Positions 36,070-59,404 of a stretch of 64,000 nucleotides of DNA are shown here, in pieces. The stretch's first letter is position 1; each line of letters opens with the position of its first letter. The stretch lies in NCBI RefSeq assembly GCF_013782625.1, contig NZ_CP056199.1:2436588-2500587 (forward strand). Reading direction: 5' to 3'. The notes below the pieces were generated by a model, which saw only the letters and a program-made list of their open reading frames with translations, was not told where the DNA came from and ran no database searches. This DNA is from Enterobacter sp. RHBSTW-00994. GTDB taxonomy: Bacteria; Pseudomonadota; Gammaproteobacteria; Enterobacterales; Enterobacteriaceae. A program made the position numbers and the translations under genes.

Positions 36070-36327
36070 TTATCGATATATTACTGCAGTTCCATATAAT
36101 CGGTTATCACCGCTGGCAGACACTATTTTAAAGTATCTGGCATTGCGTTGTTCTGCTTTTGCTTTCAGCAAAGATTCAAGATCGCTTAGCGTACTTGCAT
36201 TAGCAACAGAAATCATCCCTAATCGTTCAAGCCCAGTGACATCCCGAACCGGTTCGGCGGCTGATGCACTCGCGACTCCCCCCAATAGCAGGGGAAAAAT
36301 GAATACAGCATTCAGTATGACTTTCAT
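36070..36327 (-). CDS. YhcN/BhsA-family periplasmic protein (DUF1471)
   Basis: 85 residues. Sec signal peptide (MKVILNAVFIFPLLLGGVASASA), then a DUF1471 domain (LERLGMISVANASTLSDLESLLKAKAEQRNARYFKIVSASGDNRLYGTAVIYR). E. coli members (YhcN, BhsA, McbA, ComC/BhsA) are small periplasmic stress proteins, some copper-induced and linked to outer-membrane permeability. The ATG at 36327 follows GAGGAGG; a longer reading from 36366 is rejected. It is divergent from the secretion operon, with candidate operator repeats upstream. Confidence 0.85.
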   Translation of the reverse strand: MKVILNAVFIFPLLLGGVASASAAEPVRDVTGLERLGMISVANASTLSDLESLLKAKAEQRNARYFKIVSASGDNRLYGTAVIYR

Positions 36328-36406
36328 AAAACCTCCTCGTGTATGTTCCATCTGTACAAATAACAACCTCGAGGAAGTATTATATTAACGGTCCCTGTCC
36401 ACTTAC

Positions 36407-36553: not shown

Positions 36554-36949
36554 TTAATGTTGCAATGGCAACACCTGAGCCGGAAGAGGATGCTTATCCT
36601 CAGCCAGAGGCGTAATAAGAACCTCTTTTTGCGCAGGCAAATGTTCAGGACATGCACCATAAACCTCTAGCGTTTCTCCCGGCAAAATCGTTGTTTTCCG
36701 TAACGACACCACCATTTCATCAGGCAACAGGATGAGATCTGTTGCTATCTGCACGGCAACCGTTCCCGTATTAGTCACCGTCAGTTGGTCTTTGGTCGCC
36801 TTCCAGAGCAGTGAGTGCCAGGGACGATGAGTCTCATGCGTTAACCCCGACGCGCGGGGCTGCACATTTACGATTTCAGCCCTTACCGGGTAAGTTGATA
36901 CCACCAATAACGCTAATATCCCGGACAATAATTTACCAGAAACGCTCAT
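36554..36949 (-). CDS. Exported protein of unknown function with a beta-sandwich-like middle
   Basis: 131 residues with a Sec signal peptide (KLLSGILALLVVSTYPVRA). The middle (LTVTNTGTVAVQIATDLILLPDEMVVSLRKTTILPGETLEVYG) reads like the first domain of a PapD-type pilus chaperone, but the second domain and the usual Arg/Lys motif are absent. A periplasmic helper of the adjacent secretion system is possible; this is a guess from location. Opposite strand to the secretion operon. Confidence 0.6.
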   Translation of the reverse strand: MSVSGKLLSGILALLVVSTYPVRAEIVNVQPRASGLTHETHRPWHSLLWKATKDQLTVTNTGTVAVQIATDLILLPDEMVVSLRKTTILPGETLEVYGACPEHLPAQKEVLITPLAEDKHPLPAQVLPLQH

Positions 36950-37256: not shown

Positions 37257-37682
37257 GTGGGAAAACACAATCACCTGTCTTCACCAAATTATCAGCAAGG
37301 ATTCACATTGCTGGAACTGCTGGTGGTTCTTATGATTATTGCCCTGCTGGCTGGGTTCGTTGGCCCAAGAATTTTTTCAAACGTCGATTCCGCAAAAGAG
37401 AAAACCGCATTGCGGCAAATGCATTCTCTTGCCGATGCGTTGGGGCAATATCGACTGGATACAGGCAGTTATCCCACTGAATCCCAGGGACTTAACGCAC
37501 TCACGGAGCAACCGTCAGACAGCACGTCCTGGCACGGGCCTTATTTAACGCAGCAAGTGCCGCTGGATCCATGGGGAAACCCTTATCAATGGCATAATCC
37601 GACAAGAGAAAAAAACTCAGTCAATGAAGTGGACATTACCTCTGGTGGTAAAGACGGTAATAGCATTGTTTATGGTTTTTAA
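37257..37682 (+). CDS. Major pseudopilin GspG-like
   Basis: 141 residues. A 15-residue leader ending in Gly is followed by FTLLELLVVLMIIALLAGFVGPRIF, the type IV prepilin cleavage site (G|F, Glu at +5). The C-terminal half has GspG hallmarks: ALGQYRLDTGSYPTESQGLNAL, GPYL, VPLDPWGNPYQW and DITSGGKDGNS. It would be the main subunit of the pseudopilus piston after cleavage by the prepilin peptidase encoded at 50636. Start GTG at 37257 with AAGGA 8 bases upstream. First gene of the operon. Confidence 0.92.
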   Translation: MGKHNHLSSPNYQQGFTLLELLVVLMIIALLAGFVGPRIFSNVDSAKEKTALRQMHSLADALGQYRLDTGSYPTESQGLNALTEQPSDSTSWHGPYLTQQVPLDPWGNPYQWHNPTREKNSVNEVDITSGGKDGNSIVYGF

Positions 37683-37684
37683 TA

Positions 37685-38131
37685 ATGTACCGCTTATTCT
37701 TATTGCTATTGATACCATCATTCCTGACACATGCACACTGTTGGAAGGTAGCGGGCGATCGCTATGGTATTGAGCCAGAACTTTTGCACGCCATTGCTAT
37801 GGTAGAATCAAATGTTAATGCACAAGCAACGAATAAAAACAATGACGGGACAGTTGATGTTGGCTTGATGCAAATAAATAGTCGCCATTTCGCATCCTTG
37901 CGTAAATTTAACATCCGCAAAAGTGACTTACTGAATAACACGTGTCAGAGTGTCATTGTCGGCGCATGGATCCTGGCAGGTCATATCCAGCGATTCGGGT
38001 ATACATGGGATGCAGTTGGTGCTTACCACTCTGGTTCGTCAAATAACCCCATGCAACTAAGACTACGTAAAAAATATATTCACAAAGTTGCTCCCATCTA
38101 TTCCAGGTTGAAATCATCACAGCCACAATAA
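37685..38131 (+). CDS. Lytic transglycosylase, IagB/VirB1 type
   Basis: 148 residues with a Sec signal peptide (MYRLFLLLLIPSFLTHAHC) and an SLT domain. The catalytic Glu is in LLHAIAMVESNVNAQATN; VGLMQINSRHF and VGAYHSGSSN complete the family pattern. It cuts peptidoglycan in the periplasm to make room for a trans-envelope machine. The gene begins 2 bases after the pseudopilin stop, so it is part of the operon. A dedicated transglycosylase is typical of type III/IV secretion and pilus loci, not of classical gsp operons. Confidence 0.9.
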   Translation: MYRLFLLLLIPSFLTHAHCWKVAGDRYGIEPELLHAIAMVESNVNAQATNKNNDGTVDVGLMQINSRHFASLRKFNIRKSDLLNNTCQSVIVGAWILAGHIQRFGYTWDAVGAYHSGSSNNPMQLRLRKKYIHKVAPIYSRLKSSQPQ

Positions 38132-38142
38132 TATTAAAACCT

Positions 38143-39312
38143 ATGAAACAATTCATTATTACATCTCTTGAAAATGGAAAGCGCGTAACAAAATCTTATA
38201 TGGCGACCTCTGCGCAGGAAGCCATGTTTCGTGTAACAGGAAAAGGCGTTGTTATTCTGAAGATTATAGAGACGCCGACACAACGCGAAAAATGCTTTCC
38301 CCTTTCTCTTTTTTTGCAAGAACTGATTGCATTACTTGAAGCCGGACTGGTGGTCATTGAAGCCATAGAAGCACTCCGGGACAGCCAAAGAGATAAAATG
38401 TCGCACCTTGTTTTGACCACGCTAACCCAGAAACTTTATGAAGGTGCGCAATTGTCGCAGGCAATGAGCGCCCTGCCGACAATTTTTCCACCGCTACTCA
38501 TTAATACGGTCGCCTCATCAGAACAAACCGGACACCTGTCCACCGCGTTGTCACGCTTTCAGTTCTATGAGTCCCGGATGGAGGAATTACGAAAACGGGT
38601 GAAGTCGACACTGCTTTATCCAATGATCGTCCTCTCGGCTGGCGGTGTCATAATGTTCTTTTTACTCGGCTTCATCATTCCCCGCTTCTCCGTGGTATTC
38701 GAAGGTATGAAGCATCCTTCCGACAGCGCCCGTTTAATTATGTGGTGGGGAAAACTCACGCAAACGCACGGAACGCTATTGCTCACCGGCTGCGGCATAA
38801 CCATTTTTGCCATCGCAATGGCGGTGCGTTCTGCGCACTTTCGTCAGGGCGTGATGAACATCGTGTTGGCTATCCCACAACTTCGCCAACAGCATCATCT
38901 TTCTGTGCTGGTTCGTTTCTATCGCACTCTCGGCCTGCTGCTACAAGGCGGGCTTGCCGTCCCTGTGGCGCTGGCGTTAGGCCGCGAAATTTTACCTCAC
39001 AGCTACCAGCAGCACCTCGAAGCGGTGATCCGTGATGTCAGTGCGGGTGAATCATTCTGCCAAACGCTTGTACAGCACAACATGACCACGCCAGTCGCGG
39101 CCCGCCTGTTACACGTTGGCGAACGTGGCGGCGAGCTTGCGACCATGTGCGAACGCATCGCCGCGTTTTATGACGACGCCCTCGACAGAGCGATCGAGAA
39201 ATTCAGCAAAATCTTTGAACCCGTACTGATGATGATCGTCGGTGGCCTCGTAGGCCTGGTGGTTTTTCTGCTGTATATGCCTATTTTTGAACTTGCTGAA
39301 GGGGTGCAGTAA
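38143..39312 (+). CDS. Inner-membrane platform protein GspF/PilC-like
   Basis: 389 residues. Two T2SSF cytoplasmic domains (about 55-175 and 255-375), each ending at membrane segments, as in GspF/PilC. Landmarks are LFLQELIALLEAGLVVIEAIEALR, LYPMIVLSAGGVIMFFLLGFIIPRF, and the repeat SVLVRFYRTLGLLLQGGLAVPVALALGRE with VGERGGELATMCERIAAFYDDALDRAI. It recruits the assembly ATPase and anchors the pseudopilus base. The stop codon overlaps the start of the ATPase gene (TAATG). Confidence 0.92.
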   Translation: MKQFIITSLENGKRVTKSYMATSAQEAMFRVTGKGVVILKIIETPTQREKCFPLSLFLQELIALLEAGLVVIEAIEALRDSQRDKMSHLVLTTLTQKLYEGAQLSQAMSALPTIFPPLLINTVASSEQTGHLSTALSRFQFYESRMEELRKRVKSTLLYPMIVLSAGGVIMFFLLGFIIPRFSVVFEGMKHPSDSARLIMWWGKLTQTHGTLLLTGCGITIFAIAMAVRSAHFRQGVMNIVLAIPQLRQQHHLSVLVRFYRTLGLLLQGGLAVPVALALGREILPHSYQQHLEAVIRDVSAGESFCQTLVQHNMTTPVAARLLHVGERGGELATMCERIAAFYDDALDRAIEKFSKIFEPVLMMIVGGLVGLVVFLLYMPIFELAEGVQ

Positions 39313-40937
39313 TGACCGATTCACTCGCTGAGTTTATGTATCAGTTAGAAACGTACCTGCCCGAAGCACGCTGCGAAAAACTGACCGAATGGCTGGAACA
39401 TGCACCGCTCACTCTTGAGTGTGTTGCGCAGAGACTGGGGCTCACGCCGCTGTCTGCTTCTGACTGCACTGAGGAAAATGAATACTTTAAGCAAATTCCA
39501 CTGACAGTTGCACTGAATCAGCGCGTTCTGCCTTTTCTGCTCGCGGGCAAATGCTATATCGCGCTGGCCGACCCCTTCTCTCTGGCAATCCGTCAGTGGG
39601 CCTGGAGTGTCAATGCCTTGCCCGCATTAATGCCATTAGCAGCCCTCAACGCCCGTTTGCAGGTATTGGCAAAACAGCAACGAACCCTCGATCAATTAGA
39701 ACAACTGCAAAGTGACGACAGCGCAGAGATAAAATGGCTTGAAATTACGCCCGCCTCCATTAACAGCGAGCCTCACGCCGTCGTTAAGCTGGTCAACGCC
39801 ACACTCTTCGACGCCTTACAAAGCCGCGCCAGCGATATCCACCTCTCTGCAGTCTCTGATGGATTAGTGGTGAAATACCGGATCGACGGCGTGCTGCAAA
39901 GTATTCGCTTTTGCCCAGGCATTCAACATGCAGAACAGGTCATCTCGCGAATCAAAGTTCTGAGTTGCCTGGATATTTCTGAGCGAAGGATCCCACAAGA
40001 TGGACGCTTCAAAGCCATTATTTTACAACGACCTGTGGATTTTCGTGTCTCCATCATGCCCAGTGTGCATGGCGAAGATGCGGTACTGCGCGTCCTGGAT
40101 AAATCCCACGATCAAAATTTGCGCCTTGAAATGCTGGGCTTTGATGACCATACACAACGCGCTATTCGCCAGCTGACTCAGTTGCCTCACGGTATGGTTC
40201 TGGTTACCGGGCCTACGGGGAGCGGAAAATCCACCACCCTCTATTCAGCGCTCAGTGAGCTCAATAAGGGTGAAAGTAAAATCATCACCATTGAAGACCC
40301 GGTGGAGTACCAGCTCAATGGCGTTCTGCAAATCCCGGTCAACGACAAGAAGGGACTGACATTCGCTCGTGGGCTACGTGCGATTCTTCGCCACGATCCT
40401 GACATCATTCTGGTTGGAGAAATTCGTGACAGCGAGACGGCAGGTATTGCCGTTCAGGCCGCACTGACCGGGCACGCCGTTCTCTCATCCGTTCATGCCA
40501 ACGATGCGTTTAGCGTACTTGAACGTTTTCTGTATATGCAGGTGGAATCCGCCAGCCTGATTACCGCATTAAACGGCGTCGTCGCGCAGCGTCTGGTGCG
40601 ACGAGTATGTCCTGACTGCGCTATTCCGGTTGCCCCTGAGAACACGGTCACAGAAGCCTGGAAGGCGAGCCCTCTCCATCATCTCCCCATACGCTGCCAC
40701 AAAGGAATGGGCTGCGAGGCCTGTCGCCAAAGTGGCTATCGCGGAAGGCTGGCGCTTGCTGAAGTCCTTCATTTCAACGATGCAATCAAAGAAGCGATGC
40801 TGGCCCGGGTATCTTTGCGCCAGTTGCGGGAGGTTGCACTCAATAGTGGCTTTGTGCCGCTGACGGTTGTTGCTTTGCGAGCAGTACTGGAAGGACAAAC
40901 CACCTGGGAGGAGATTACCCGTGTTATTGCACATTAA
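39312..40937 (+). CDS. Secretion/pilus assembly ATPase GspE/PilB-like
   Basis: 541 residues, hexameric cytoplasmic ATPase. An N-terminal MshEN/T2SSE-N region (1-150) is followed by the core ATPase: Walker A GPTGSGKST (residues 300-308), Asp box IITIEDPVEYQL, Walker B ILVGEIRDSETAGIAVQAALTGH with the His box, then a zinc-binding tetracysteine element (CPDC near 436 and CEAC near 464). The cysteine element is typical of GspE. It powers pseudopilus growth. Translationally coupled to GspF-like gene upstream. Confidence 0.95.
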   Translation: MTDSLAEFMYQLETYLPEARCEKLTEWLEHAPLTLECVAQRLGLTPLSASDCTEENEYFKQIPLTVALNQRVLPFLLAGKCYIALADPFSLAIRQWAWSVNALPALMPLAALNARLQVLAKQQRTLDQLEQLQSDDSAEIKWLEITPASINSEPHAVVKLVNATLFDALQSRASDIHLSAVSDGLVVKYRIDGVLQSIRFCPGIQHAEQVISRIKVLSCLDISERRIPQDGRFKAIILQRPVDFRVSIMPSVHGEDAVLRVLDKSHDQNLRLEMLGFDDHTQRAIRQLTQLPHGMVLVTGPTGSGKSTTLYSALSELNKGESKIITIEDPVEYQLNGVLQIPVNDKKGLTFARGLRAILRHDPDIILVGEIRDSETAGIAVQAALTGHAVLSSVHANDAFSVLERFLYMQVESASLITALNGVVAQRLVRRVCPDCAIPVAPENTVTEAWKASPLHHLPIRCHKGMGCEACRQSGYRGRLALAEVLHFNDAIKEAMLARVSLRQLREVALNSGFVPLTVVALRAVLEGQTTWEEITRVIAH

Positions 40938-41631
40938 CATCTGGCAATGCGATATCTGGCCACACATGATTCGGATCCGCAGAAACAGCCAGACTCTTAC
41001 CACACATACCCGACTTGTTGGCGAAACGCTGGAAATGTCTCTCTCCACAGTACTGGAACAATATGCACCGGCCATTCCCTGGCGCGATGCGGTCGCGTTT
41101 TATCTGGATACTCAGGAGATTACCTTTCTGGTTCAACCCTGGCAGGACGGAATCGCCTCACCGACTGAGTTACGTCGCCTTGCTCACTATCGGGTTGCAG
41201 AACGCTTCTCGCAGAATGCGCATCCCGATGTCGATCAAATATTGCAATTAGAAGCCTATGCCTGGCAGCGTACGGCACTGGTCGCGAGCCTGCAACAACG
41301 CTGCTGGCAGACGCTCATCGCTGTCGCACGTCGTTTGCGTTTGCGTTTTTCCGGTGTGATTACGCCCTTTCAGTTACTTTTGCAGCCGTACAAGAAAGCG
41401 TTACCCGAAATGGCTCTGTTCGTTTGCCTGAGTCAACAGCACACACGGATTGCCATTCGGCGAGAAAACAACTGGCTGGATGCCTGTACGCTTAATCTGC
41501 CCAACCCGACGCGCACGGCGAAGCTCGAGATTATCTCTCAACTTAGTGGAATGAAAAATTGCCCCTGCTATCTCCTTGATATGCCAGAAGATAAACCCAT
41601 CATCACTCATTTATCAGGCCTGCACGAATGA
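40921..41631 (+). CDS. Inner-membrane platform protein, GspL/PilM-like position
   Basis: 236 residues, no signal peptide or clear membrane helix. I place the start at the GTG at 40921, where GGAGGAG sits 7 bases upstream; the coding region overlaps the end of the ATPase gene by 17 bases. Its place (after E, before a PilN-like gene) and size suggest the cytoplasmic PilM/GspL-N component that binds the ATPase, but I cannot see clear actin-like motifs, so the assignment rests mainly on gene order. The C-terminal half has paired Cys (NCPCYLLDMP). Confidence 0.65.
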   Translation: MLLHINIWQCDIWPHMIRIRRNSQTLTTHTRLVGETLEMSLSTVLEQYAPAIPWRDAVAFYLDTQEITFLVQPWQDGIASPTELRRLAHYRVAERFSQNAHPDVDQILQLEAYAWQRTALVASLQQRCWQTLIAVARRLRLRFSGVITPFQLLLQPYKKALPEMALFVCLSQQHTRIAIRRENNWLDACTLNLPNPTRTAKLEIISQLSGMKNCPCYLLDMPEDKPIITHLSGLHE

Positions 41632-42131
41632 CACCACTCTTTTCTGTACAAGCTCGGTGGGCGAACAGGACGCTTCTCGGTATCCTGCTGTTATCCCTTC
41701 CACTTATAGGGTTTATCATCAATGAAAAGCTGACTCAGCGAGATATCAGCATGCAACTTGATCTTGCTCAGCGGCAACTCACAACTCAGCAACGCCTTCA
41801 TCAACAATGGCTACATGCCCGGCCACAAAAATCGCCGTTTCAACACAATAGACCCTGGGCGCTGATTATGCTCGATCGTCTTGGCTCGGTTTTGACGTCA
41901 GAGATTTCCCTGTCAGCCATCGATGTGGATGCGAAAAAAAAAGAGATGAGACTCAGTGTAAAAGCGACATCGCTCACATCGCTTCTGACGTTCACCGCGC
42001 ATTTACAGTCACTGGCAACGGTCACGCTGGAAAATCATCAACAATCCGCTGACGACAATCCTCTCTGGCCACTCACAGCCGCGGTCACATTACATTTTGA
42101 CGCGGAGAAAGCAGATGTCCGTGCGCATTAA
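41628..42131 (+). CDS. PilN-like platform protein
   Basis: 167 residues: a short cytoplasmic N-terminus, one membrane helix (LLGILLLSLPLIGFIINEKL), a coiled-coil-like segment (DISMQLDLAQRQLTTQQRLHQQWL), then a ferredoxin-like periplasmic part with LDRLGSVLTSEISLSAIDVDAKKKEMRLSVKATSLTSLLTFTAHLQSL, the PilN/GspL C-terminal pattern. Overlaps the upstream stop by 4 bases (ATGA) and the next gene by 17. With the preceding gene it would replace the single GspL of classical systems. Confidence 0.8.
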   Translation: MTPLFSVQARWANRTLLGILLLSLPLIGFIINEKLTQRDISMQLDLAQRQLTTQQRLHQQWLHARPQKSPFQHNRPWALIMLDRLGSVLTSEISLSAIDVDAKKKEMRLSVKATSLTSLLTFTAHLQSLATVTLENHQQSADDNPLWPLTAAVTLHFDAEKADVRAH

Positions 42132-42633
42132 TATTCCATTGATCCGTTGGCGCGTCGCCGAATTAACAGAACGTTGCGGCCGGATACCCTTATTCCTGTG
42201 TCTGCTACCCTGCGTACTGGTCATTTTTTGGCTTTCCGTCATGGTTCCATCTACTGCTGCGCAGTATAAAACCCTGTCCGACATCCATGCACAATTGAAA
42301 AAGATGCTGCCAGTCGAGCGTCTGCACCCCGATCTCAAAACACATGTCACTACCAGCGAGTATCAACAAGTCAATATTCTGTTTGACCAACTCCAGGAGC
42401 ATCATCTACGGATTCGGGCCAGCCAATATCAACGGGATGAAAAAGCCGGTGCGGAATCTCTGGTGCTGGATATTCCCGCTGAAGGCGAATACCTCCCGCT
42501 CGTGGACACACTTTGGCAACTGCAGGAATCGTTGCCAATTGATATCGAAAATATCACGCTGCAACGCACTGCTCCTCAGGGAACCTCCCTCGCGATAACC
42601 CTGCGCATCCGGCTTCGTAAGGAGGGGCAATGA
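42115..42633 (+). CDS. PilO/GspM-like platform protein
   Basis: 172 residues with one membrane helix near 30-50 (IPLFLCLLPCVLVIFWLSVMVP), a coiled segment and a small periplasmic domain (LDIPAEGEYLPLVDTLWQLQESLPIDIENITLQRT...LAITLRIRLR), the ferredoxin-like fold typical of PilO/GspM. The ATG at 42115 has GGAG 8 bases upstream; the longer reading is rejected. It overlaps the genes on both sides. Confidence 0.78.
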   Translation: MSVRINIPLIRWRVAELTERCGRIPLFLCLLPCVLVIFWLSVMVPSTAAQYKTLSDIHAQLKKMLPVERLHPDLKTHVTTSEYQQVNILFDQLQEHHLRIRASQYQRDEKAGAESLVLDIPAEGEYLPLVDTLWQLQESLPIDIENITLQRTAPQGTSLAITLRIRLRKEGQ

Positions 42634-43145
42634 TCGTCCCACGTTATCTCCAGGTGACTTTGGCACTGACTCTCGCATCCGTTATCTGGAGCGTGGTTTC
42701 CGGTGATGAGCGTGATGATGCCCCAGTTCGTCCCGTTGCTCCGGCCCACAACCAGCCTACTGCACATCGAAAATCAGCAGATTCGGTAATGGCTGTACAC
42801 AAAGATCTCTTCGCGTTATCTCATGCAGACAAAGAAAATCCCGCGACAACTCAGGCAAAGGCTGAACCGCCCCCTCCACAACACATAACACCCGCACTTC
42901 CCCTTTCACTGCTGGGCATCTGGTGGGAAGGACACCAGCGGATCATTTTATTGACTGATGGTCGAGATACCTGGCCTGTCTGTCATCACTGCCGCGCGGA
43001 AAACGCCATCTGGATTGGCAATGAGCCTGTCGAAGGCTGGAAGCTGAAAGCGGTAAATAAAGATGACCTGTTGTTTGAATGGCAACTCACTCATACGTCA
43101 CAGCATCTGGAAATTAGTGATTTACAATCGGAACCGACACAGTAG
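42630..43145 (+). CDS. PilP/GspC-like periplasmic connector
   Basis: 171 residues: one N-terminal membrane segment, a Pro-rich linker (AKAEPPPPQHITPALPLS) and a small HR-type domain (LLGIWWEGHQRIILLTDGRDTWPVCHHC...IGNEPVEGWKLKAVNKDDLLFEW). This is the layout of PilP or GspC, which tie the inner-membrane platform to the N-domains of the secretin. A CxxC (CHHC) is unusual for the family. It overlaps the PilO-like gene by 4 bases and touches the secretin gene with no gap. Confidence 0.75.
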   Translation: MIVPRYLQVTLALTLASVIWSVVSGDERDDAPVRPVAPAHNQPTAHRKSADSVMAVHKDLFALSHADKENPATTQAKAEPPPPQHITPALPLSLLGIWWEGHQRIILLTDGRDTWPVCHHCRAENAIWIGNEPVEGWKLKAVNKDDLLFEWQLTHTSQHLEISDLQSEPTQ

Positions 43146-45020
43146 ATGAACCTGAAAAATACTCTCGCCTTCACATTATCATGTACGCTCCTGGGGGGAT
43201 GTGCACAAAAGAATATTGCCCCACCCGAACCGGTTCGGTCAGATACGCCCCAGGCGATAATCAAACGCTTAAATGAGATTGATCAAGCTCGTACCACCCG
43301 TCCGCAGAGTATTGAACTGCGCGCTGAACAGGCGCTTTTGATAAAGAATCTGGTTAACGACTATCTGCGAAAGGCCGAACAGGCCAGTAAGCAGAATAAT
43401 TACACCCGTGCCGCAGACATGTGGCGTAGCGTATTGCGCTGGGAACCCGGTAACCTGCGGGCACAGCAAGGGCTCCGCAAACTTGATGCCCGCTACGCAC
43501 TGGAAACCCTGTATCGTGAAGCGGTTTCTGAAAGTCATCATGATCCCGAGCAGGCGTTAGACACTATTCAGAAAGTTATTGAAGAAGATCCTAACTGGCC
43601 ACAGGCACGTGCCTTACGCGACCATTTACTGCGCGAAGCTGCAGTATTTAATCAACCGGAAACCCATCTTAAACGCGAATTGCAAAAAGCGGTCTCCGTC
43701 AATTTTCGACAGCACAGTATCTTCGCTATTTTCAATACCATCAGCCAGTTAACGGGCGTTAATTTCATTTTTGATAAAGATGTTCCGGACAGTAGCGCCA
43801 GTCTGATCGCCAAACATACCACTGCAGAAGATGCGATAAATCTCCTGTTAATTTCCAACAATCTGCGCAGAAAAGTACTCAACAAAAATACGTTATTAAT
43901 TTATCCCGCCACACAGCAAAAAGAGAAACTCTATCGTGACATTGTCGTAAAAACGATTTTTCTGGGTTATGCCAGAGCCAAAGAGACCAATGTTGCTCTG
44001 CGCAACATGATCAAGGTTAAGGACATCCACGTTGATGAGCGCACTAATTCCATCACGCTACGTGGACCGAAAGAAAATGTCGAGCGCGCAGAACGACTGC
44101 TAATGACCCTTGATCGCCCCGAAGCTGAAGTGACGCTGGCTGTCGAAGTTCTCGAGGTTAATTCAAGCGACATTGAGGCACTGGGGATCAATATGCCGCA
44201 AAAAATCAGCATGGGCTTTGGCAAAATTGACGGTGAAAAAAGTGAAGCTGGCAGTATTCCTTTGAATAACATTAATTCCAGCCATATCCTTGTGAATACT
44301 GATAACCTTTCTCTTGATCTAAAAAAAGTATTGGCGAATGCCAAAGTGCTCGCCAACCCACGGATCCGGGTCAAAAATAATAAAAAAGCGATCATCGAAA
44401 TCGGGGAAACTATTCCGGTATTAACCAGTAATGTGTCCGATGGAATCTCCCAGCAAAAAGTTGAATATCAGGATGTCGGACTGAAGCTGGAGGTCATACC
44501 GGAAGTCAGTATGGATGACAATATTTCCATGGATGTTAAGTTCAAACTTAGCAGCCTTGGTGCGCCAGAAAAAGGTGAAAAAGGAACGGTTTATTACCGC
44601 ACAAATAAGCGTGAAGCCAACACCACGCTCAGCAGTATGAATGGAGAAACACAAATGCTGGCTGGCCTGATAAAACAGGATGAAACCCGTTCACACAGCG
44701 GTGTTCCATTACTCAGCGATATTCCCGGTCTGGGGCGACTTTTTAGCAGTAAATCAGACAATAACCAGCGTACAGAAGTCATTCTTCTGATTACACCCAC
44801 AATTGAACGCAACCTCGACCTTCCGGGAAGCCATATCAGCACCATTGACATCGGCAGCGATGAGGTTACCGGGGACAACATTCAGTTACATGACGCTGAC
44901 CATGATGATACGAAGCAAAACTTCAGTGCCCCACCGCTTGCGCCCCCCGCTCAACTTCCCGCAAGAACCGCGGTATTACCGCCGCCAACGCTGGATCCTC
45001 TCCCTCAAATAACGGAGTGA
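43146..45020 (+). CDS. Outer-membrane secretin (lipoprotein) GspD/PilQ/MshL-like
   Basis: 624 residues. The signal MNLKNTLAFTLSCTLLGGC has a lipobox (LGGC), so the protein carries its own lipid anchor. Next comes an alpha-helical TPR-like region (about 50-170: NYTRAADMWRSVLRWEPGNLRAQQGL and PEQALDTIQKVIEEDPNW), then STN/N-type domains (about 175-320, FAIFNTISQLTGVNFIFDKDV). The secretin core is at about 325-560, with VLANPRIRVKNNKKAIIEIGETIPV, VEYQDVGLKLEVIPEV and the C-terminal VPLLSDIPGLGRLF and EVILLITPTIE. A Pro-rich tail ends the protein. It would form the gated outer-membrane channel. No pilotin gene is nearby. Confidence 0.94.
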   Translation: MNLKNTLAFTLSCTLLGGCAQKNIAPPEPVRSDTPQAIIKRLNEIDQARTTRPQSIELRAEQALLIKNLVNDYLRKAEQASKQNNYTRAADMWRSVLRWEPGNLRAQQGLRKLDARYALETLYREAVSESHHDPEQALDTIQKVIEEDPNWPQARALRDHLLREAAVFNQPETHLKRELQKAVSVNFRQHSIFAIFNTISQLTGVNFIFDKDVPDSSASLIAKHTTAEDAINLLLISNNLRRKVLNKNTLLIYPATQQKEKLYRDIVVKTIFLGYARAKETNVALRNMIKVKDIHVDERTNSITLRGPKENVERAERLLMTLDRPEAEVTLAVEVLEVNSSDIEALGINMPQKISMGFGKIDGEKSEAGSIPLNNINSSHILVNTDNLSLDLKKVLANAKVLANPRIRVKNNKKAIIEIGETIPVLTSNVSDGISQQKVEYQDVGLKLEVIPEVSMDDNISMDVKFKLSSLGAPEKGEKGTVYYRTNKREANTTLSSMNGETQMLAGLIKQDETRSHSGVPLLSDIPGLGRLFSSKSDNNQRTEVILLITPTIERNLDLPGSHISTIDIGSDEVTGDNIQLHDADHDDTKQNFSAPPLAPPAQLPARTAVLPPPTLDPLPQITE

Positions 45021-45024
45021 GCCG

Positions 45025-45495
45025 ATGAAGAAGAATGGGTTTACGCTAATCGAAATGATGGTGACATTAGTGCTGCTCAGTACGCTGGCCGCCGCCGTTG
45101 CGCCACTGGTGCAACGCTACCAACAGCGTCAAAAAGAAGAGCAGCTTCGGGAAGCGTTGCGCGATATTCGCAGCGCTATTGACCGCTATAAACAAGCGAG
45201 TAGCGAAGGACGCATTGAGAAGAAAACTACAGAATCGGGTTATCCCCCCTCCCTTAAGAGTCTGGTTGAAGGCGTTCCTGATGAAACATCACCGAACCAT
45301 AGCCAACTCTATTTTCTGCGTCGGATCCCACGTGATCCGATGTGCGATTGTGCTTCCCGGCCTGCTGACCAGACCTGGCGTGTCCGTTCGTCCACACAGG
45401 CATCGGGGGAATTCGACGGTGGGAAAGATCTCTTTGATGTCAGCAGTAGTAATAATGACAGCGGCTTAAACGGGATCCCTTATGCGCAGTGGTGA
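45025..45495 (+). CDS. Pseudopilin (GspG/H-like)
   Basis: 156 residues. Short leader MKKNG followed by FTLIEMMVTLVLLSTLAAAVAPLV (cleavage G|F, Glu at +5), a long amphipathic helix (QRYQQRQKEEQLREALRDIRSAIDRYKQ) and a small domain with two Cys (MCDC). The segment YFLRRIPRDPM matches a variant pseudopilin group often called GspG-like. Starts 4 bases after the secretin stop and overlaps the next pseudopilin by 14 bases. Confidence 0.88.
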   Translation: MKKNGFTLIEMMVTLVLLSTLAAAVAPLVQRYQQRQKEEQLREALRDIRSAIDRYKQASSEGRIEKKTTESGYPPSLKSLVEGVPDETSPNHSQLYFLRRIPRDPMCDCASRPADQTWRVRSSTQASGEFDGGKDLFDVSSSNNDSGLNGIPYAQW

Positions 45496-45847
45496 AAAGG
45501 GTTTTACCCTGATTGAATTGCTGGTCGTCATGGCGATCATTGCAACATTATTGACCCTGGTCGCCCCGCGTTTTTTCCCACAAGTGGACAAGGCGAAGAA
45601 AGTGGTGCTTGAACACAACCTGCAGACCCTTCGTCAGGCTCTCGATTACTTCCGACGCGATCGCGCAGAGGGCCCCAATCACCTCGATGAATTAGTTGAT
45701 GCTGGCTACCTCAGGCAATTACCGCTGGATCCAGTCAGCAATAAGCGCGATGACTGGCAAGTCATAACAGACGACACAGGGCAAATTATTGATGTCAAAG
45801 CTCCCTCACCGCGCACACAGGCAGAAAATGATGAGTCTGAATACTGA
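45482..45847 (+). CDS. Pseudopilin (GspG-like, second copy)
   Basis: 121 residues: leader MRSGEKG, then FTLIELLVVMAIIATLLTLVAPRFF with Glu at +5, then the helical spine QVDKAKKVVLEHNLQTLRQALDYFRRDR and a short C-terminal domain (LPLDPVSNKRDDWQV). Shorter than the pseudopilin at 37257, with no visible calcium-site residues. It overlaps genes on both sides. Confidence 0.88.
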   Translation: MRSGEKGFTLIELLVVMAIIATLLTLVAPRFFPQVDKAKKVVLEHNLQTLRQALDYFRRDRAEGPNHLDELVDAGYLRQLPLDPVSNKRDDWQVITDDTGQIIDVKAPSPRTQAENDESEY

Positions 45848-46325
45848 ACATCAGCAGGGTTTTACCTATCTGTTGTTACTCATTGTACTTACCGTAATGT
45901 CTGTATTTCTGCTGAAATCCAGGGAAGGACAAGAGATGTCTTTCCGCGCACAGCAAGAGAGCGAATTACTGTTCCGGGGGGAACAAATCCGTTCAGCAAT
46001 CGCGTCGTACCGGGAAAAAAGTGGCGTCTCCGGCTGTTTTCCCGTCAGCTTCGAACAACTACTGATCGACAAACGCGGTCTGACCCCCTCTTACCACTTA
46101 CGCCAGTTTTACCCTGATCCACTCACCGGAAAAAAAACGTGGGGCATGATCTACGATGCAAAGGGGCGCTGGATTGGCGTATACAGTCTGGGTACAGGTA
46201 TCCCACGGCGGAAAAGTGGATTCCTGAGCGATAGCGAAAAATTTAAAAAAGCGACCCGTTATCGCGACTGGGCATTTCAGGTTGAGGGGGATCCCCTTGC
46301 CCCGCTACCTACCGTTTGTCGGTAA
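45831..46325 (+). CDS. Minor pseudopilin without Glu5 (GspK-like tip candidate)
   Basis: 164 residues. A leader ending QQG is followed by FTYLLLLIVLTVMSVFLL: a prepilin-type site, but the usual Glu at +5 is Leu. Only the tip-most pseudopilin (GspK) normally lacks Glu5, so this is probably the tip. It is about half the length of classical GspK and has just two Cys. The ATG at 45828/45831 lies inside the end of the previous gene. Last gene of the machine; the candidate cargo genes follow after about 230 bases, a stretch (46326-46551) with no gene seen. Confidence 0.8.
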   Translation: MSLNTEHQQGFTYLLLLIVLTVMSVFLLKSREGQEMSFRAQQESELLFRGEQIRSAIASYREKSGVSGCFPVSFEQLLIDKRGLTPSYHLRQFYPDPLTGKKTWGMIYDAKGRWIGVYSLGTGIPRRKSGFLSDSEKFKKATRYRDWAFQVEGDPLAPLPTVCR

Positions 46326-46557
46326 TAATTGTCTGAATAATATTACTTGTCTTGTGTGCTTCACCCTAAGACTGCTCTCGGCCAGCAGGGAAAACCTGCC
46401 AACTATTCACAAACATTATTTATAGATATTTCTGATAAGCCTGTAGAATATTCCTCCCTCTACGTATAGCTTGTCTCATTTATTCTTTTATTCATTAGAA
46501 TATTATTGATTCTGTAACATTTTGGAATATTAATTATATTTTAGGGACTTTGTGATC

Positions 46558-48498
46558 ATGAAAAAAACGTTACTGGCACTCTTTGTCTGTACTGCAGTTT
46601 CTTTTTCTGCGCATGCCACTGTCAACGACTATGCCAGAGAAGGAAACACTTACCTTTCCGTTATTATAAAATTCAAAGCTATCCCATCATTATTAAAATC
46701 AAATTCACAACAACTCCTTAATGATTCTACCTTAACGAACAAGCCGTTGTTCCACCCTAATCGTTTACGTAGTACCGAATTAACGGAACTTACTGAGCTA
46801 AACCAAAAATACGGATTTGATCGTTATCAGCGTATTACGTTACCGTCAAGTAAAAGTCACGACATTAGATATATTAACAACATCATCAATGAACTTAACA
46901 AAAATCCAGATATCGAAATTATTTATCCTGAAATACAACCAGCGTCCTTAGAGTTTTTCAACAATGAAAAACACAATGCCAATAACAATTTAAGTTATTC
47001 ATTCTCTCATGATGAAAATGGCATTATTCCAGACTTCCGCCAACTACAGGATTATATGAAATCTCCGGATGATAAACGTCCAGGCTATTATATGGGAGGG
47101 GTAAACCGTGATGCTGCTTACCAGTACAATGGTAATGAGGGGGACGGAATATCTATTGTTTCCATGGAGAATGAACCCTGGAATGAGCAACATGTCAATT
47201 TACCTGAAATCAGTTTTCATGAAGGCAACAAATACCACCGAACCGATGATCATGACACCAGTTCAGTCGGTATCATGGCAGCAAAAGACATTGGAACAGG
47301 CGTCAGAGGTCTTACGACAAGAAGTCGCATTGGTTTTACCAGTTGGCAAGCTAATAACCTCTATAACATGATCCCCCGTCTAAAAGCAGGCGATGTTGTA
47401 CAAATGGGTATGCAGACGGGTGGCGGTGAGATTACAGGGTGTAAAACAAGTTGCTTTGTTCCACAGGAAAATGCTCCAGATTATTACGATCTCATTAAGG
47501 CGCTGACAGACAAAGGTGTATACGTTATTGAAGCTGCAGGAAATGGTAACGTTAATCTAGACCATCCGGCGTTTAAAGGTAAGTTTGACGTTAATAAACG
47601 CGACTCCGGCGCAATTATTGCTGGCGCCTTCTGCGCAAAAGAGGGAAAAAAAGCGTACTTCAGTACTTACGGTTCACGTGTAACCAGTTCTGCGTGGGGG
47701 TGCTGGGACGTCGTGACAACGGGTACGGGCGATTTATATAACGCGAAAAACATGGAATATACCGCCTCTTTTGCCGGAACATCTTCAGCGAATCCGATTA
47801 TTGCGGGAGTTGTCGCCAGTTTATCGTCTATTGCTAAAGCGCATAATATCCATGTGACACCGGCAAAAATGCGTGAAATTTTGCAACAGACAGGTACTCC
47901 GCTGGCGATGGGGGATTCATCACGTGTTGGTACGCAACCTGATATGGAAAAAGCTGTCGCCAAAATTCTTGCGCTTAGCGACGAGGATGATCGCCCAGCA
48001 GCCCCCGTCGCGGATGCGGGTGCTGACTTTACCGTCGAGGGAACCACCGATATTGCCCACGCCTGGCCACTTGATGCCAGCGCAAGTCAAAATGCTTTGT
48101 CATATACATGGACGATCGCTGAAGGAAGCGGCATCTTCTGGTTACAAGAGAAACAAGGAGGCCATGCTGTTAAGAAAGTAAACGGTCCAAAAGCCTTTGC
48201 CTTTATTCCCGCGAATACTGAAGGAAAGGTAACTTATCTCCTTACCGTAAAAGGTAAAGATGGTCAGGTTTCGCATGATGAAATAACCGTCACCATTACA
48301 AAAACAGAAAAGCCGCTTGATAATATTGAACCTTATGACGGTATGAATTCTTACCCTATAAAATGTACTGCAGTATCCCATAATGGGAATATTTGGTTTA
48401 ACCAGTGGTACGTAGATGTCATGCAAGAAGAACCAGGAACAGGAGGTAAATGGGGCGCATGGCGTGAAAAAAATGCGTCCAATAATAACTGTCGCTAG
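46558..48498 (+). CDS. Secreted subtilase-like (S8) protein with altered Asp site
   Basis: 646 residues. Signal peptide MKKTLLALFVCTAVSFSAHA, a propeptide-like region (about 22-130), an S8 domain (about 170-470), a PKD/beta-sandwich-like domain (about 482-582, ADAGADFTVEGTTDIAHAWPLDASAS) and a short Trp-rich C-terminal piece resembling a carbohydrate-binding module (AVSHNGNIWFNQWYVDV...GGKWGAW). The catalytic His (H232 in DDHDTSSVGIMAA), oxyanion Asn (N329 in AAGNGN) and nucleophile Ser (S409 in GTSSANP) are present. The catalytic Asp is not: the strand reads ISIVSMENEPW. It may use Glu204 or be inactive. Position after the secretin and pseudopilins suggests it is cargo. Confidence 0.85.
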   Translation: MKKTLLALFVCTAVSFSAHATVNDYAREGNTYLSVIIKFKAIPSLLKSNSQQLLNDSTLTNKPLFHPNRLRSTELTELTELNQKYGFDRYQRITLPSSKSHDIRYINNIINELNKNPDIEIIYPEIQPASLEFFNNEKHNANNNLSYSFSHDENGIIPDFRQLQDYMKSPDDKRPGYYMGGVNRDAAYQYNGNEGDGISIVSMENEPWNEQHVNLPEISFHEGNKYHRTDDHDTSSVGIMAAKDIGTGVRGLTTRSRIGFTSWQANNLYNMIPRLKAGDVVQMGMQTGGGEITGCKTSCFVPQENAPDYYDLIKALTDKGVYVIEAAGNGNVNLDHPAFKGKFDVNKRDSGAIIAGAFCAKEGKKAYFSTYGSRVTSSAWGCWDVVTTGTGDLYNAKNMEYTASFAGTSSANPIIAGVVASLSSIAKAHNIHVTPAKMREILQQTGTPLAMGDSSRVGTQPDMEKAVAKILALSDEDDRPAAPVADAGADFTVEGTTDIAHAWPLDASASQNALSYTWTIAEGSGIFWLQEKQGGHAVKKVNGPKAFAFIPANTEGKVTYLLTVKGKDGQVSHDEITVTITKTEKPLDNIEPYDGMNSYPIKCTAVSHNGNIWFNQWYVDVMQEEPGTGGKWGAWREKNASNNNCR

Positions 48499-48624
48499 TT
48501 AATTAATAACGAGCCAAGTTTAACAACACCAATGTTATTCTTGCTTAATATTTTAATGACAGATAGATATATTTCAGTCAAGCAATTCTGAGAATTACTA
48601 CATTTAGAACAAGGAGACATGTTC

Positions 48625-50526
48625 ATGTTATTTCCACAAAAAAGAATACTCGCTATTTTAATTGGGAGTTCCCTTTTCTCTTCATTACCAGGAACAGTGT
48701 TTGGACATGGCGCAATGGATTTCCCCAAAGCACGCCAGTATGAATGTAAATCACAAGGTAATCACTGGACTCCGGCTACCATGAAGAGTGCGGCTTGTCG
48801 GGCTGCGCTGGAAAATAGTTCCGCAAAACAGGCTGCTTTTGATAACTGGAATGGTTATACCGGTTTTGCCATGGCGCCACACAGTCAACAGGATGCCCGA
48901 AAAGCAGTACCTGACGGCATGCTTTGCACCGGAAATCACCCAGAATATTCAGGCTTCAACCAGCCACGATCTGACTGGACCACGACGACATTGCAACCAG
49001 ACAGCAGTGGTAAGGTCGGCATGAAATATTACTACACAGCACGGCATGCCCCCTCATTTATTGAATTTTATATTAATAAAAAAAATGTCGATCCCACTAA
49101 AAAAGCACTCGGATGGGATGATGTTGAACTACTAAAACGCTTCGAGATCGAGCCAGGTGATGCCAGCTCAACCCATACCGTCAATGTCTCTATCCCCTCA
49201 GATCGAACAGGAAAAGCGATTATTTTCACCCGCTGGCAACGTTATGACGCCGCCGGTGAGGGTTTCTACAACTGTAGTGATGTGAATATCAAAACCCGTG
49301 ATGGTTCGGAAATCCCGGATGAAAACGGTACAGGAGATGACGATCAGGTCTCCGGATGGGTTGATAAAGGTGCTTTCATCACCACGGCTGATAATCCGGC
49401 TGTCGGCGAACAAGTTCGCTTTCGTTTGATGGGGGGCACACGCGGCGACAATATTGTCGATGTGAGTCTCGCTATCTCCGCTGCGAATGTTGCTAACAAT
49501 AAATGGATTGTCGAACTCGGGCAGTTGCTGAATCGCGAGCACAGTAATTTACTGCAAATTGGGCAGCAGACCGCAGATGAAACGATCACTTTCAACGAAC
49601 AGCAACCGCGACTGAATCACGTTTTCCTCAGTGACCAAAGTTATGGTTACGCCGTTGAAATTGTGAAAAATGCAGAAACGCCGGTGATCGTCCTTGATAG
49701 TTATACGCTTGAACCCATTGCGACTCTCAGCACGACTTCTGGCTATCCAGTGACCGGTAGCAGCAAATCGGAAGTAAACTGGCAATGGAAACGTATCGCA
49801 GGCGATAGTCGTATCGTTGCAGCCCCAGCCAATCAGGCGAAAACCGAGATACGCATACCTGGCGGGGTTCGGGGTGGAACCGTGGCGACATTTGAACTAT
49901 CAGGAACCAGTCCTAAAGGTTCTGTCGGTAAAGCAATACTGAAGGTGAACGTACTTGCAGCAGAAGTTATTGCGACTGGACCAGTCAGTATTGCGGCGGA
50001 TAAAGGCGGTCAATATCGTGCCAGGGCTAATTTTGACAACAACAAAGGGGAAGTCACATACCTTTGGTCTCTGCTGAAGAATAGCACTGAAGTTTCCGGA
50101 GGTATTGATAACAGAGGCAGTATAAAAACGGGCTTGCCTGCCGGAGACTACCTGGTAAAAGTCGTTGCAGAATCTTCTGATGGGGAACGTAAAGCAACCC
50201 GCACCTCAGCGCTAAAAATAACGGCGAGCGATGACAGTGACAAAACGGGTGACTACGAGGGATGGAAAGCCAGTAAAACCTACACAGCCGGAAATACGGT
50301 GACCTGGAACGGGGTGAACTATATCGCCCGAAACTGGACCAGAAGTGAACCCGGGAAAGGTGGCGACTGGAAATTGCATCATAACCGGGTTGCCGTAGAG
50401 TGGCAGTCAACGATGGTTTACGTTATGGGTAATGTCGTCAACTATCAGGGGCAGGAATATAAAGCCAGCCAATGGATCTCACAGAATAATGTACCCGGTG
50501 TGAGTGTACTCTGGAAATTGCAGTAA
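48625..50526 (+). CDS. GbpA-like lytic polysaccharide monooxygenase (AA10) with two CBM5/12 modules
   Basis: 633 residues. The signal peptide ends VFG|H, leaving His28 as the N-terminal residue that forms the copper histidine brace with His141 (TARHAPSFIEFYI). The AA10 domain covers about 28-210. A GbpA domain-2-like region follows (about 230-340), then a PKD-like stretch, and two C-terminal chitin-binding modules (about 545-585 YEGWKASKTYTAGNTVTWNG and 590-633 VEWQSTMVYVMGNVVNYQG). It would cleave chitin oxidatively or act as a chitin/mucin-binding colonisation factor. GbpA of Vibrio is exported by type II secretion, which fits the neighbouring machine. The ATG at 48625 is 8 bases after AAGGAG. 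Confidence 0.93.
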   Translation: MLFPQKRILAILIGSSLFSSLPGTVFGHGAMDFPKARQYECKSQGNHWTPATMKSAACRAALENSSAKQAAFDNWNGYTGFAMAPHSQQDARKAVPDGMLCTGNHPEYSGFNQPRSDWTTTTLQPDSSGKVGMKYYYTARHAPSFIEFYINKKNVDPTKKALGWDDVELLKRFEIEPGDASSTHTVNVSIPSDRTGKAIIFTRWQRYDAAGEGFYNCSDVNIKTRDGSEIPDENGTGDDDQVSGWVDKGAFITTADNPAVGEQVRFRLMGGTRGDNIVDVSLAISAANVANNKWIVELGQLLNREHSNLLQIGQQTADETITFNEQQPRLNHVFLSDQSYGYAVEIVKNAETPVIVLDSYTLEPIATLSTTSGYPVTGSSKSEVNWQWKRIAGDSRIVAAPANQAKTEIRIPGGVRGGTVATFELSGTSPKGSVGKAILKVNVLAAEVIATGPVSIAADKGGQYRARANFDNNKGEVTYLWSLLKNSTEVSGGIDNRGSIKTGLPAGDYLVKVVAESSDGERKATRTSALKITASDDSDKTGDYEGWKASKTYTAGNTVTWNGVNYIARNWTRSEPGKGGDWKLHHNRVAVEWQSTMVYVMGNVVNYQGQEYKASQWISQNNVPGVSVLWKLQ

Positions 50527-50604
50527 ATGATCTGCTCCACCCGTTGTGGTGGAGCGTTCAGAATGCTTAATAATAACAATACGATTCGCCCTCTATTTTT
50601 TATG

Positions 50605-50637
50605 CCGGACAGGGAGGAGGTCTGTCCGGTTTTTTTT
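50605..50637 (+). terminator. Intrinsic terminator at the end of the secretion/cargo block
   Basis: Perfect stem CCGGACAG/CTGTCCGG with a 9-base loop followed by eight T, abutting the prepilin peptidase stop codon on the other strand. A second hairpin without T tail (GCTCCACC/GGTGGAGC) lies near 50532-50553. Confidence 0.88.
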
Positions 50638-51382
50638 ACATGATTGAGGAATGAATTAGCATCCAGCTAATTGCTGCGATCACAGGATAAGGGCCGAAAG
50701 GAAATGGCTGGCTGGGCCTGGTTTTCAGCAAAACTAAAGCTACCAGCAGTGCTGAGACTGAAGACCATAATATAATATCCAACAACGCCTGAGGTCCCAA
50801 CCAGGCCCCCAGGCCTGCAAAAAGTTTCATATCCCCTATTCCCATACCTTCCTTCCTGCATAAACCACTATAAATACGAGCAACAAACCAGGGGATGCCA
50901 AAACCAGAAATCGCGGCAATAAATGCCTGATGGAATTCCACTACAGATCGCCCACTGGCCGAAAAGGCAAGTGCAAGGAGCAAAAAAGGTAATGTCAAGC
51001 GATCAGGGAGTAACATTGTATCAATGTCGATAAAGAGAAGCGGTATTAACATTGCCACAGCAAACAAGTCAAAAGTGCTTTGCCATGTTATTCCCTGTTG
51101 CCAGATAATAATAGTAAACAATAGTGCCATGGTTATTTCAACCGTCAGATAACGCCAGGAAATTGCCCGACCGCAGCACGCACTACGTCCCATTAGCATG
51201 AGCCAGCCCAGAATGGGGATATTGTGACAAATTCTGATCCGCTGCCTGCAACCAGGACAGTGGGAAGGCGGCCACGAGAGAGTGAACTCTTCACCGTTAA
51301 GCATTAGGGGTAAACGATAAATCACCACATTACAGAAACTGCCAATAATAGCCCCCGTGAGGGTGAAAAAGAGAATAACCAT
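50636..51382 (-). CDS. Prepilin peptidase / methyltransferase (GspO/PilD type)
   Basis: 248 residues, inner-membrane aspartyl protease A24A with about seven helices. The N-terminal methylase part has GAIIGSFCNVVIYRLPLML and the zinc-binding pairs CPGCRQRIRICHNIPILGW and CC. The protease aspartates lie in LLFIDIDTMLLPDRLTLP and GMGIGDMKLFAGLGAWLG. It would cut and N-methylate the four pseudopilins encoded nearby. It is the only component on the opposite strand, convergent with the LPMO gene. Confidence 0.93.
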   Translation of the reverse strand: MVILFFTLTGAIIGSFCNVVIYRLPLMLNGEEFTLSWPPSHCPGCRQRIRICHNIPILGWLMLMGRSACCGRAISWRYLTVEITMALLFTIIIWQQGITWQSTFDLFAVAMLIPLLFIDIDTMLLPDRLTLPFLLLALAFSASGRSVVEFHQAFIAAISGFGIPWFVARIYSGLCRKEGMGIGDMKLFAGLGAWLGPQALLDIILWSSVSALLVALVLLKTRPSQPFPFGPYPVIAAISWMLIHSSIM

Positions 51383-51575: not shown

Positions 51576-52097
51576 TTAAATCATACGATGAAGAATATCA
51601 CGAGAACCACCTTTCACATGATGAATTACAGCAGTGACATGTATCAACAAAATAGCCCCTAGCACAATACAACTAATACGGTGCAACTTAAAAAAGAATT
51701 CGTTAACTTCTACTGTTTTCACGGGATGCGTAATATGAACCAAGCCGAATAAATTATAATCACTTTGCAACATCAAAAAACCACTGATTAATACAATGAA
51801 AATCGCAAGATAAAAAATCTCATGAACAAATACGACAATTTGTTTTTTACGCACGCCCAACCATGCAGGATAGGGAACAGATTTACGAAAAAATCGCCAG
51901 ACAAAACGCACAATCATGACAGGTGTTGCAATCGTTCCTAACGACATATTTAAGACGGAGAAAAAGTTGAACCATCGCGTTCCTTCTATGGCGTGTAAAA
52001 TATAACCCATCGCCATTGCATAAATAATCACGATGGCGACTAACCAGTGTAATACTCGAGTAAAGATATCGTAACGCGTATTTCCCTTACAATTCAT
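51576..52097 (-). CDS. Cytochrome b561-type membrane protein
   Basis: 173 residues, four membrane helices. His residues suitable for haem b are in the first helix (FTRVLHWLVAIVIIY), second/third region (VHEIFYLAIF) and fourth (KLHRISCIVLGAILLIHVTAVIHH). It belongs to the bacterial b561/CybB family that oxidises quinol in the inner membrane, in some cases passing electrons to oxygen or periplasmic acceptors. I start at the ATG at 52097, with GGAGGAA upstream. Its link to the neighbouring oxidase is only positional. Confidence 0.88.
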   Translation of the reverse strand: MNCKGNTRYDIFTRVLHWLVAIVIIYAMAMGYILHAIEGTRWFNFFSVLNMSLGTIATPVMIVRFVWRFFRKSVPYPAWLGVRKKQIVVFVHEIFYLAIFIVLISGFLMLQSDYNLFGLVHITHPVKTVEVNEFFFKLHRISCIVLGAILLIHVTAVIHHVKGGSRDILHRMI

Positions 52098-52166
52098 ATG
52101 TTCCTCCGCTCTCATTTTATACATTCCATTGCTTCCCTGAATTAGACAACATGATCTATTATCCAT

Positions 52167-56644: not shown

Positions 56645-56699
56645 TTAGGTAGGTATGATTCTCTACAGCAGACAATGCAAACATATGGAGAAGGTCATA

Positions 56700-59380: not shown

Positions 59381-59404
59381 TCTTAAATTCCATTTAATGT
59401 ACAA

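Follow-up and report, generated by a model that had tools for sequence, protein, structure and literature searches.

The present analysis concerns a stretch of 64,000 nucleotides (nt; the window) of Enterobacter sp. RHBSTW-00994 (contig NZ_CP056199.1, positions 2,436,588 to 2,500,587). It contains a compact operon that, judged by its sequence, encodes a type-II-like secretion machine related to the textbook type II secretion system (T2SS) but separate from it. According to the listing of open reading frames, twelve machine genes lie on the forward strand between 37257 and 46325 and touch or overlap each other. They encode, in this order, the major pseudopilin G, a lytic transglycosylase (LT), the platform protein F, the assembly ATPase E, the proteins M, N, O and P, the secretin D and the pseudopilins 2, 3 and 4. 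An S8 protease and a lytic polysaccharide monooxygenase (LPMO) follow on the same strand, and their genes begin 226 nt and 120 nt past the preceding gene, respectively. This order and orientation had been stated in the original prediction, made from the DNA letters alone, and was borne out; Pfam and NCBIfam confirmed the families GspG, SLT, T2SSF, T2SSE, secretin, pseudopilins, Peptidase_S8, LPMO_10 and A24. All reading frames of the machine operon are intact and the overlaps are conserved. The starts of M (GTG 40921), O (ATG 42115) and pseudopilin 4 (approx. ATG 45828) were revised from those of homologues, and M overlaps E by 17 nt with its revised start.

A strong terminator-like hairpin with a T-tract was found at 50604-50630, 3' of the LPMO gene. 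The A24 prepilin peptidase (50636-51382; PF06750, PF01478) is encoded convergently on the reverse strand behind this hairpin and therefore lies outside the operon. Thus, the earlier claim that all these genes form one unit holds for the twelve touching or overlapping machine genes and not for the peptidase. A promoter scan detected no more sites than in shuffled sequences. The island as a whole is wider than 37257-51382 and extends from about 36.5 to 59.4 kb.

The major pseudopilin (37257-37682) was identified as GspG by the equivalog test with 135 bits (TIGR01710, cut-off 88.9 bits) and has the same position in relatives. Pseudopilins 2 (45025-45495; N_methyl, 2.1e-8), 3 (45482-45847; N_methyl, 1.2e-8) and 4 (45828-46325; sequence QQGFTYLLLLIVLTV) did not pass the cut-offs for GspH, GspI or GspJ. 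Pseudopilin 4 has no Glu5, as in GspK, and its sequence and homologues make it a tip candidate. The inner-membrane platform protein F (38143-39312) was assigned by PF00482 and by its tree, and the ATPase E (39312-40937) by PF00437 with 405 bits and likewise by its tree. E remained below the equivalog cut-offs both for GspE (TIGR02533; 467 vs 630 bits) and for PilB (TIGR02538; 442 vs 676 bits), and no gene for a PilT-like retraction ATPase is listed between 37 and 51 kb.

The exported SLT lytic transglycosylase (37685-38131; PF01464, 6.5e-25) sits between G and F throughout the whole LPMO-linked clade, and its catalytic Glu (E41) and GLMQ motif are invariant in the alignment. It belongs to the family of IagB and R64 PilT; unlike it, these serve type III secretion systems and type IVb pili. 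The genome has an R64-like type IVb pilus locus of its own at 3.98 Mb (L040), the LT of which is 39% identical to the one described here.

M (40921-41631), N (41628-42131), O (42115-42633) and P (42630-43145) matched no Pfam or NCBIfam family above cut-off, and searches of the PDB with profiles built from M, N and P found nothing credible. For M (236 residues), AlphaFold predicted an actin-like fold from 21 homologues, with a predicted local distance difference test score (pLDDT) of 90.8 and a predicted template modelling score (pTM) of 0.87. In VIA-align, the model matched PilM-PilN (2ych) with Z 12.1 and a root-mean-square deviation (rmsd) of 4.3 at 213 aligned residues, and cytoplasmic EpsL (1yf5) with Z 10.0 and rmsd 3.9 at 189 aligned residues. 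FtsA and an uncharacterised Bacteroides protein equalled these scores; the fold therefore backs a protein of the PilM/GspL type, yet it is the place of the gene in the operon that settles the assignment. No membrane segment is evident in M, and N, a small protein with one N-terminal transmembrane (TM) segment, is encoded by its own gene at the position of PilN or periplasmic GspL. Thus, GspL appears to be split, as in type IV pili. O is small with one TM segment and stands at the PilO/GspM position; like N, it was assigned by sequence, position and alignment. P combines one TM segment with a domain resembling the homology region of GspC and PilP (weak T2SSC match, E 0.007; alignment). Its periplasmic domain carries a Cys-x2-Cys pair that is kept in the LT clade only and is absent from LT-less relatives. 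The predicted fold of M and the separate gene for N agree with the originally proposed platform split in PilM/N/O/P fashion.

The secretin D (43146-45020) was assigned by Pfam, a structural model and its relatives. It consists of a lipobox with Cys19, helices resembling tetratricopeptide repeats (TPR) at 35-179, N0, N1 and the secretin barrel, while N2 and N3 are missing (Pfam domains STN, one Secretin_N and secretin). The lipobox Cys is invariant in 20 of 20 aligned relatives and the N-terminal extension is present in all of them. Since the model of D is of low confidence (pLDDT 68.5, pTM 0.35), its PDB matches were used for the domain order only. All NCBIfam scores stayed below the cut-offs, with 178 bits for GspD (cut-off 351), 158 for PilQ and 114 for MshL (cut-off 250). 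The earlier statement that the secretin is closer to MshL/PilQ is therefore correct for the architecture, as N0 and N1 alone are PilQ-like, but not for the scores, among which GspD ranks first. Neither a GspS nor a PilF gene was found in the locus. By analogy with HxcQ-type liposecretins and the pilotins PilF and Tgl, the TPR-fused lipoprotein D looks like a secretin with a built-in pilotin.

A tree of 69 E proteins united all LT-bearing machines in a single clade (support 100/99) inside a larger clade with LT-less relatives (97/100), and this larger clade was separate from classical GspE, MshE, PilB, HofB and TfpB. Its deeper branching order is weakly supported, L104 (Pandoraea), a reference row labelled GspE, clusters with PilB, and L114 is uncertain. 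Quick trees of F and D agreed with the E tree, with the LT clade supported at 99 and both Gsp and MSHA separate from it. A single clade of these E proteins with classical GspE was rejected by the approximately unbiased (AU) test with p 0.0038. The machine departs from the classical T2SS by the scores of E and D, by a secretin without the full N0-N3 series, by the lack of a fused GspL and by the lack of a GspH/I/J/K set. It departs from mannose-sensitive haemagglutinin (MSHA) pili by its MshL score and by the separate MSHA rows in the E, F and D trees, and from type IVa pili by its PilB score and the absence of a PilT-like gene in the stretch listed. The profile hidden Markov models and the phylogeny thus supported the placement outside the named gsp and MSHA families that had been proposed; on scores and trees, the machine could be assigned neither to E. 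coli gsp nor to HofB/HofQ or MSHA.

The description as a hybrid of T2SS and pilus, by contrast, had to be given up. The agreement of the E, F and D trees is evidence against recent chimerism, and as the lineage is also common in Pseudomonas and Burkholderiales, it is neither an enterobacterial oddity nor a local hybrid. Local assembly from T2SS and pilus parts was ruled out by these concordant trees and by a gene order conserved across beta- and gammaproteobacteria. With the classical T2SS (Gsp/Out/Pul/Xcp), the machine shares the GspG-type pseudopilin, F, E, the secretin, the A24 peptidase, the actin-like M and the GspC/PilP-like P. It differs in separate M and N genes instead of one GspL, four instead of five pseudopilins, a TPR lipoprotein domain in a secretin without N2/N3, the LT in the operon and a separate E/F/D branch. 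The split PilM/N/O/P-type platform and the short secretin N-terminus (N0, N1) resemble MSHA and type IVa pili (MshL, PilQ, PilMNOP), whereas the GspG-type major subunit, the lack of a retraction ATPase in the locus and the position of E and D outside the MSHA clade do not.

The LPMO (48619-50526) is composed of LPMO_10, GbpA_2, PKD-like and CBM5/12 domains. Its LPMO_10 domain (PF03067; 4.4e-40, 138.7 bits) begins with the His of HGAMD that follows the signal peptide, as expected for auxiliary activity family 10 (AA10). LPMO_10 genes were present in all 38 LT-machine genomes searched (78 genes altogether), and the domain was confirmed by Pfam in 21 of 21 LPMOs checked. In 35 of the 38 genomes an LPMO lies near the machine, with a median gap of 1.6 kb and a maximum of 15.1 kb; 0.53 genomes are expected by chance at a limit of 15 kb, although many of the genomes are related and the effective number is smaller. 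For the extended cases, contig identity was verified by length. As class background, 10 of 369 genomes contained an LPMO, and none was found in ten genomes with LT-less relatives. The linkage recurs with varying geometry in at least nine genera. BLAST of the loci put an LPMO next to nearly all LT-type operons: in Pseudomonas and Burkholderia it directly precedes G, whereas in Achromobacter, Chromobacterium and the majority of enterobacteria it lies downstream.

In the LPMO tree, both deep clades contain genes adjacent to the machine, and the starred branches force at least six label changes. As adjacent LPMOs come from different deep clades, the linkage has arisen repeatedly and is not one old accident. 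In the Pseudomonas loci L087 and L090, the LPMO in the upstream slot comes from the other deep clade; hence, the LPMO was exchanged while the slot was retained. Since the machine almost always travels with LPMO genes, it is probably a dedicated LPMO exporter. The exported S8 protease (46552-48498; PF00082, 4.7e-12) adjoins the LPMO also in RIT693 and Achromobacter. Its catalytic triad is incomplete: the His and the Ser of GTSxA are present, but the Asp position is occupied by Glu206 in the window, RIT693 and Achromobacter. This Glu is conserved down to 34% identity, and the C-terminus is a CBM5/12-like, i.e. chitin-binding-like, module. The proposal that LPMO and protease are the best cargo candidates thereby gained comparative support, which is strong for the LPMO through its linkage far above expectation and, for the protease, comes from its recurrence beside the LPMO.

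Further genes complete the island. A cytochrome b561 (51576-52166, reverse strand; PF01292, 1.3e-21) is a recurrent neighbour in islands of enterobacteria, Burkholderia, Pandoraea and Glaciimonas (L043, L050-L052, L055, L057, L088, L140, L141, L143, L145). It is followed on the forward strand by a LuxR-type response regulator (52639-53235; domain match, conserved in L043, L044 and L046), a hybrid histidine kinase (53252-56644; domain match and neighbourhood comparison) and a second LuxR-type response regulator (56655-57386; domain match). A TonB-dependent copper receptor (57434-59404, reverse strand; TIGR01778, 675 bits, cut-off 472), the sole copy in the genome, ends the island. Judged by position on the same contig, this receptor lies close to the machine in 12 of the 33 neighbourhoods and is usually the genome's only copy. 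The carriers are the window, RIT693, Lelliottia, Pantoea, Enterobacter, Serratia, Izhakiella, three Rouxiella, Glaciimonas and Herbaspirillum (partial gene), including loci L046, L050, L051, L052, L143 and L145; in Pseudomonas and Burkholderia genomes it is located elsewhere. A receptor near LPMO-linked machines is a possible copper-supply link to the copper enzyme LPMO. To the left of the island lie a heavy-metal two-component system (CopRS/CusRS-like, 33385-35461) and a BhsA-like protein (36070-36366), perhaps further copper-related genes near the island, perhaps a coincidence.

Many loci add a glycoside hydrolase family 18 (GH18) chitinase, a cytochrome b561 and a two-component system. The chitinase is encoded upstream in the RIT693, Lelliottia, Pantoea and Enterobacter islands and beside the peptidase in Winslowiella. 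No GH18 gene was found in the window, and the only one of this genome adjoins its classical gsp T2SS at approx. 1525-1538 kb of contig C1 (L038). A small exported pilus-chaperone-like protein (36554-36949, reverse strand) is found beside the chitinase in relatives (L041, L042, L094, L145), and the window retains its gene where the chitinase is missing.

At high similarity, D was present in 4 of 198 Enterobacteriaceae genomes and, within the genus itself, in 4 of 60; in the class it was found in 11 of 369 genomes, LT-less relatives included. The scan returned 57 loci, from Lelliottia, Pantoea, Mixta, Serratia (one genome with two copies), Izhakiella, Winslowiella, Rouxiella, Kosakonia and Enterobacter, from Burkholderia, Paraburkholderia, Pandoraea, Trinickia, Achromobacter, Chromobacterium, Glaciimonas, Herbaspirillum and Rudaea, and from many Pseudomonas. 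The LT-bearing machine is distributed patchily over some ten genera of enterobacteria as well as Achromobacter, Burkholderia, Chromobacterium, Pandoraea and Pseudomonas. A sister group (L026-L036) has the same machine without the LT, and its genomes contain no LPMO. At megablast level, the operon occurred in no E. coli genome. The left flank of the island is not conserved within the genus, and an IS3-type transposase (60000-60794) and a VasL-like type VI secretion gene (62701-63975) at the right edge of the window suggest a variable genome region. Patchiness, variable left flank and transposase fit a horizontal spread of the island. An origin from phages or plasmids was rejected: phages gave only weak secretin matches, viral contigs were not found, and the 26 plasmid records, mostly Burkholderiales replicons, were all below 60% identity.

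Gene content, separate lineage and LPMO linkage are established here, all essential machine parts are encoded in one operon, the major pilin passes as GspG and the locus has no retraction ATPase gene. With good confidence, we regard the system as a dedicated type-II-like machine for a copper-dependent, chitin-active LPMO and accessory proteins with carbohydrate-binding modules such as the S8 protease, forming the core of a chitin/copper island. The LPMO would leave the cytoplasm by Sec, then fold and acquire copper in the periplasm. Copper loading is placed in that compartment because T2SS substrates are exported in the folded state, and the TonB receptor would thereby have a function as copper supplier. 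The LT would open the peptidoglycan for assembly of the machine, and the secretin would pilot itself to the outer membrane by its built-in TPR domain. The actin-like M together with N, O and P would link the ATPase E with F as well as with the secretin, and a GspG-type pseudopilus built from the four-pseudopilin set would push out the folded LPMO. The two-component system would switch on the island, and cytochrome b561 possibly supplies electrons to the LPMO. A wider reading falls somewhat short of an even chance: a separate type IV filament lineage for the export of copper-loaded LPMOs, with copper uptake, enzyme, electrons, peptidoglycan opening and secretion united in one horizontally spread island in which the LPMO gene was repeatedly swapped.

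Several points weigh against a dedicated exporter. Winslowiella iniecta and two Rouxiella genomes have no adjacent LPMO, the functions of M, N, O and P are assigned by fold or position, and we infer secretion itself from knowledge of T2SS. T2SS export GbpA and CbpD in other bacteria, and the classical gsp T2SS of the same genome could export the LPMO. The machine may also build a short surface pilus. An adhesive or chitin-binding pilus of the MSHA or competence type, with the LPMO exported by the classical system or as a co-regulated neighbour, would explain the split platform, the N0+N1-only secretin and the top structural match of the low-confidence D model, the Vibrio competence PilQ. It is nevertheless unlikely given the GspG-type major subunit, the absence of a PilT-like gene from the locus and the LPMO gene that relatives in Pseudomonas and Burkholderia keep directly before G.

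It is still less probable that the machine is a classical T2SS that has diverged and exports the ordinary broad range of cargo, linked to the LPMO as part of a general chitin-degrading island. The part list is the same (D, E, F, G, L/M-like, C-like, pseudopilins and A24), and GH18 and S8 proteins also occur in some islands, but the GspE score, the AU test, the small pseudopilin set, the split M/N, the shortened D and the added LT set it apart. A decayed or silent locus would accord with the patchy distribution within the genus; it is hardly credible in view of the intact frames, conserved overlaps and invariant catalytic residues of the LT.

A dedicated exporter has known counterparts. Txc of P. 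paraeruginosa PA7 secretes the adjacent chitin-binding CbpE under control of the two-component system TtsS/TtsR (PMC12369383). It thus resembles the present locus in that a T2SS-type machine stands next to a chitin-binding cargo of the LPMO type and is accompanied by a two-component system, but belongs to the Xcp cluster of classical T2SS (PMC3570484) and hence to a different lineage. Yts1 of Yersinia enterocolitica has the adjacent N-acetylglucosamine-binding substrate ChiY and an adjacent cytochrome b gene (PMC3521999), yet consists of a classical gsp gene set (yts1C-S). Yts2 of Yersinia was rejected as a relative, as it is also a gsp-type cluster (PMC3521999). Loper et al. 2012 reported a fourth, 'novel' T2SS limited to P. 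fluorescens sub-clade 3, for which the main text names no LPMO substrate (PMC3390384). It is probably the LT-bearing machine, since matches include P. marginalis, P. grimontii and P. lurida of that group. The many 'generic' systems reassigned to T2SS by Denise et al. 2019 (PMC6668835) may include this lineage. The LT-bearing lineage, its LPMO pairing and the copper-receptor link were found nowhere described in the literature, where coverage of subscription journals was thin and an earlier account is possible.

Cargo recognition by T2SS-like machines is a long-standing open question, for which a machine paired with essentially one enzyme family, the members of which were swapped several times, is a natural experiment; comparing the two deep LPMO clades served by close machine relatives could reveal a shared export feature. 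The island also hints at how LPMOs gain copper before secretion and at an electron source that may be built in. In ecological terms, it suggests the use of chitin (fungal or arthropod) by plant- and insect-associated bacteria.

In L041 (13258-19470), L042 and L094, a large inverse autotransporter of the intimin/invasin type with Big_1 repeats lies between machine and LPMO of these three enterobacterial islands (domains scanned in L041). The genome analysed here also encodes HofQ at 4.439 Mb (L039).

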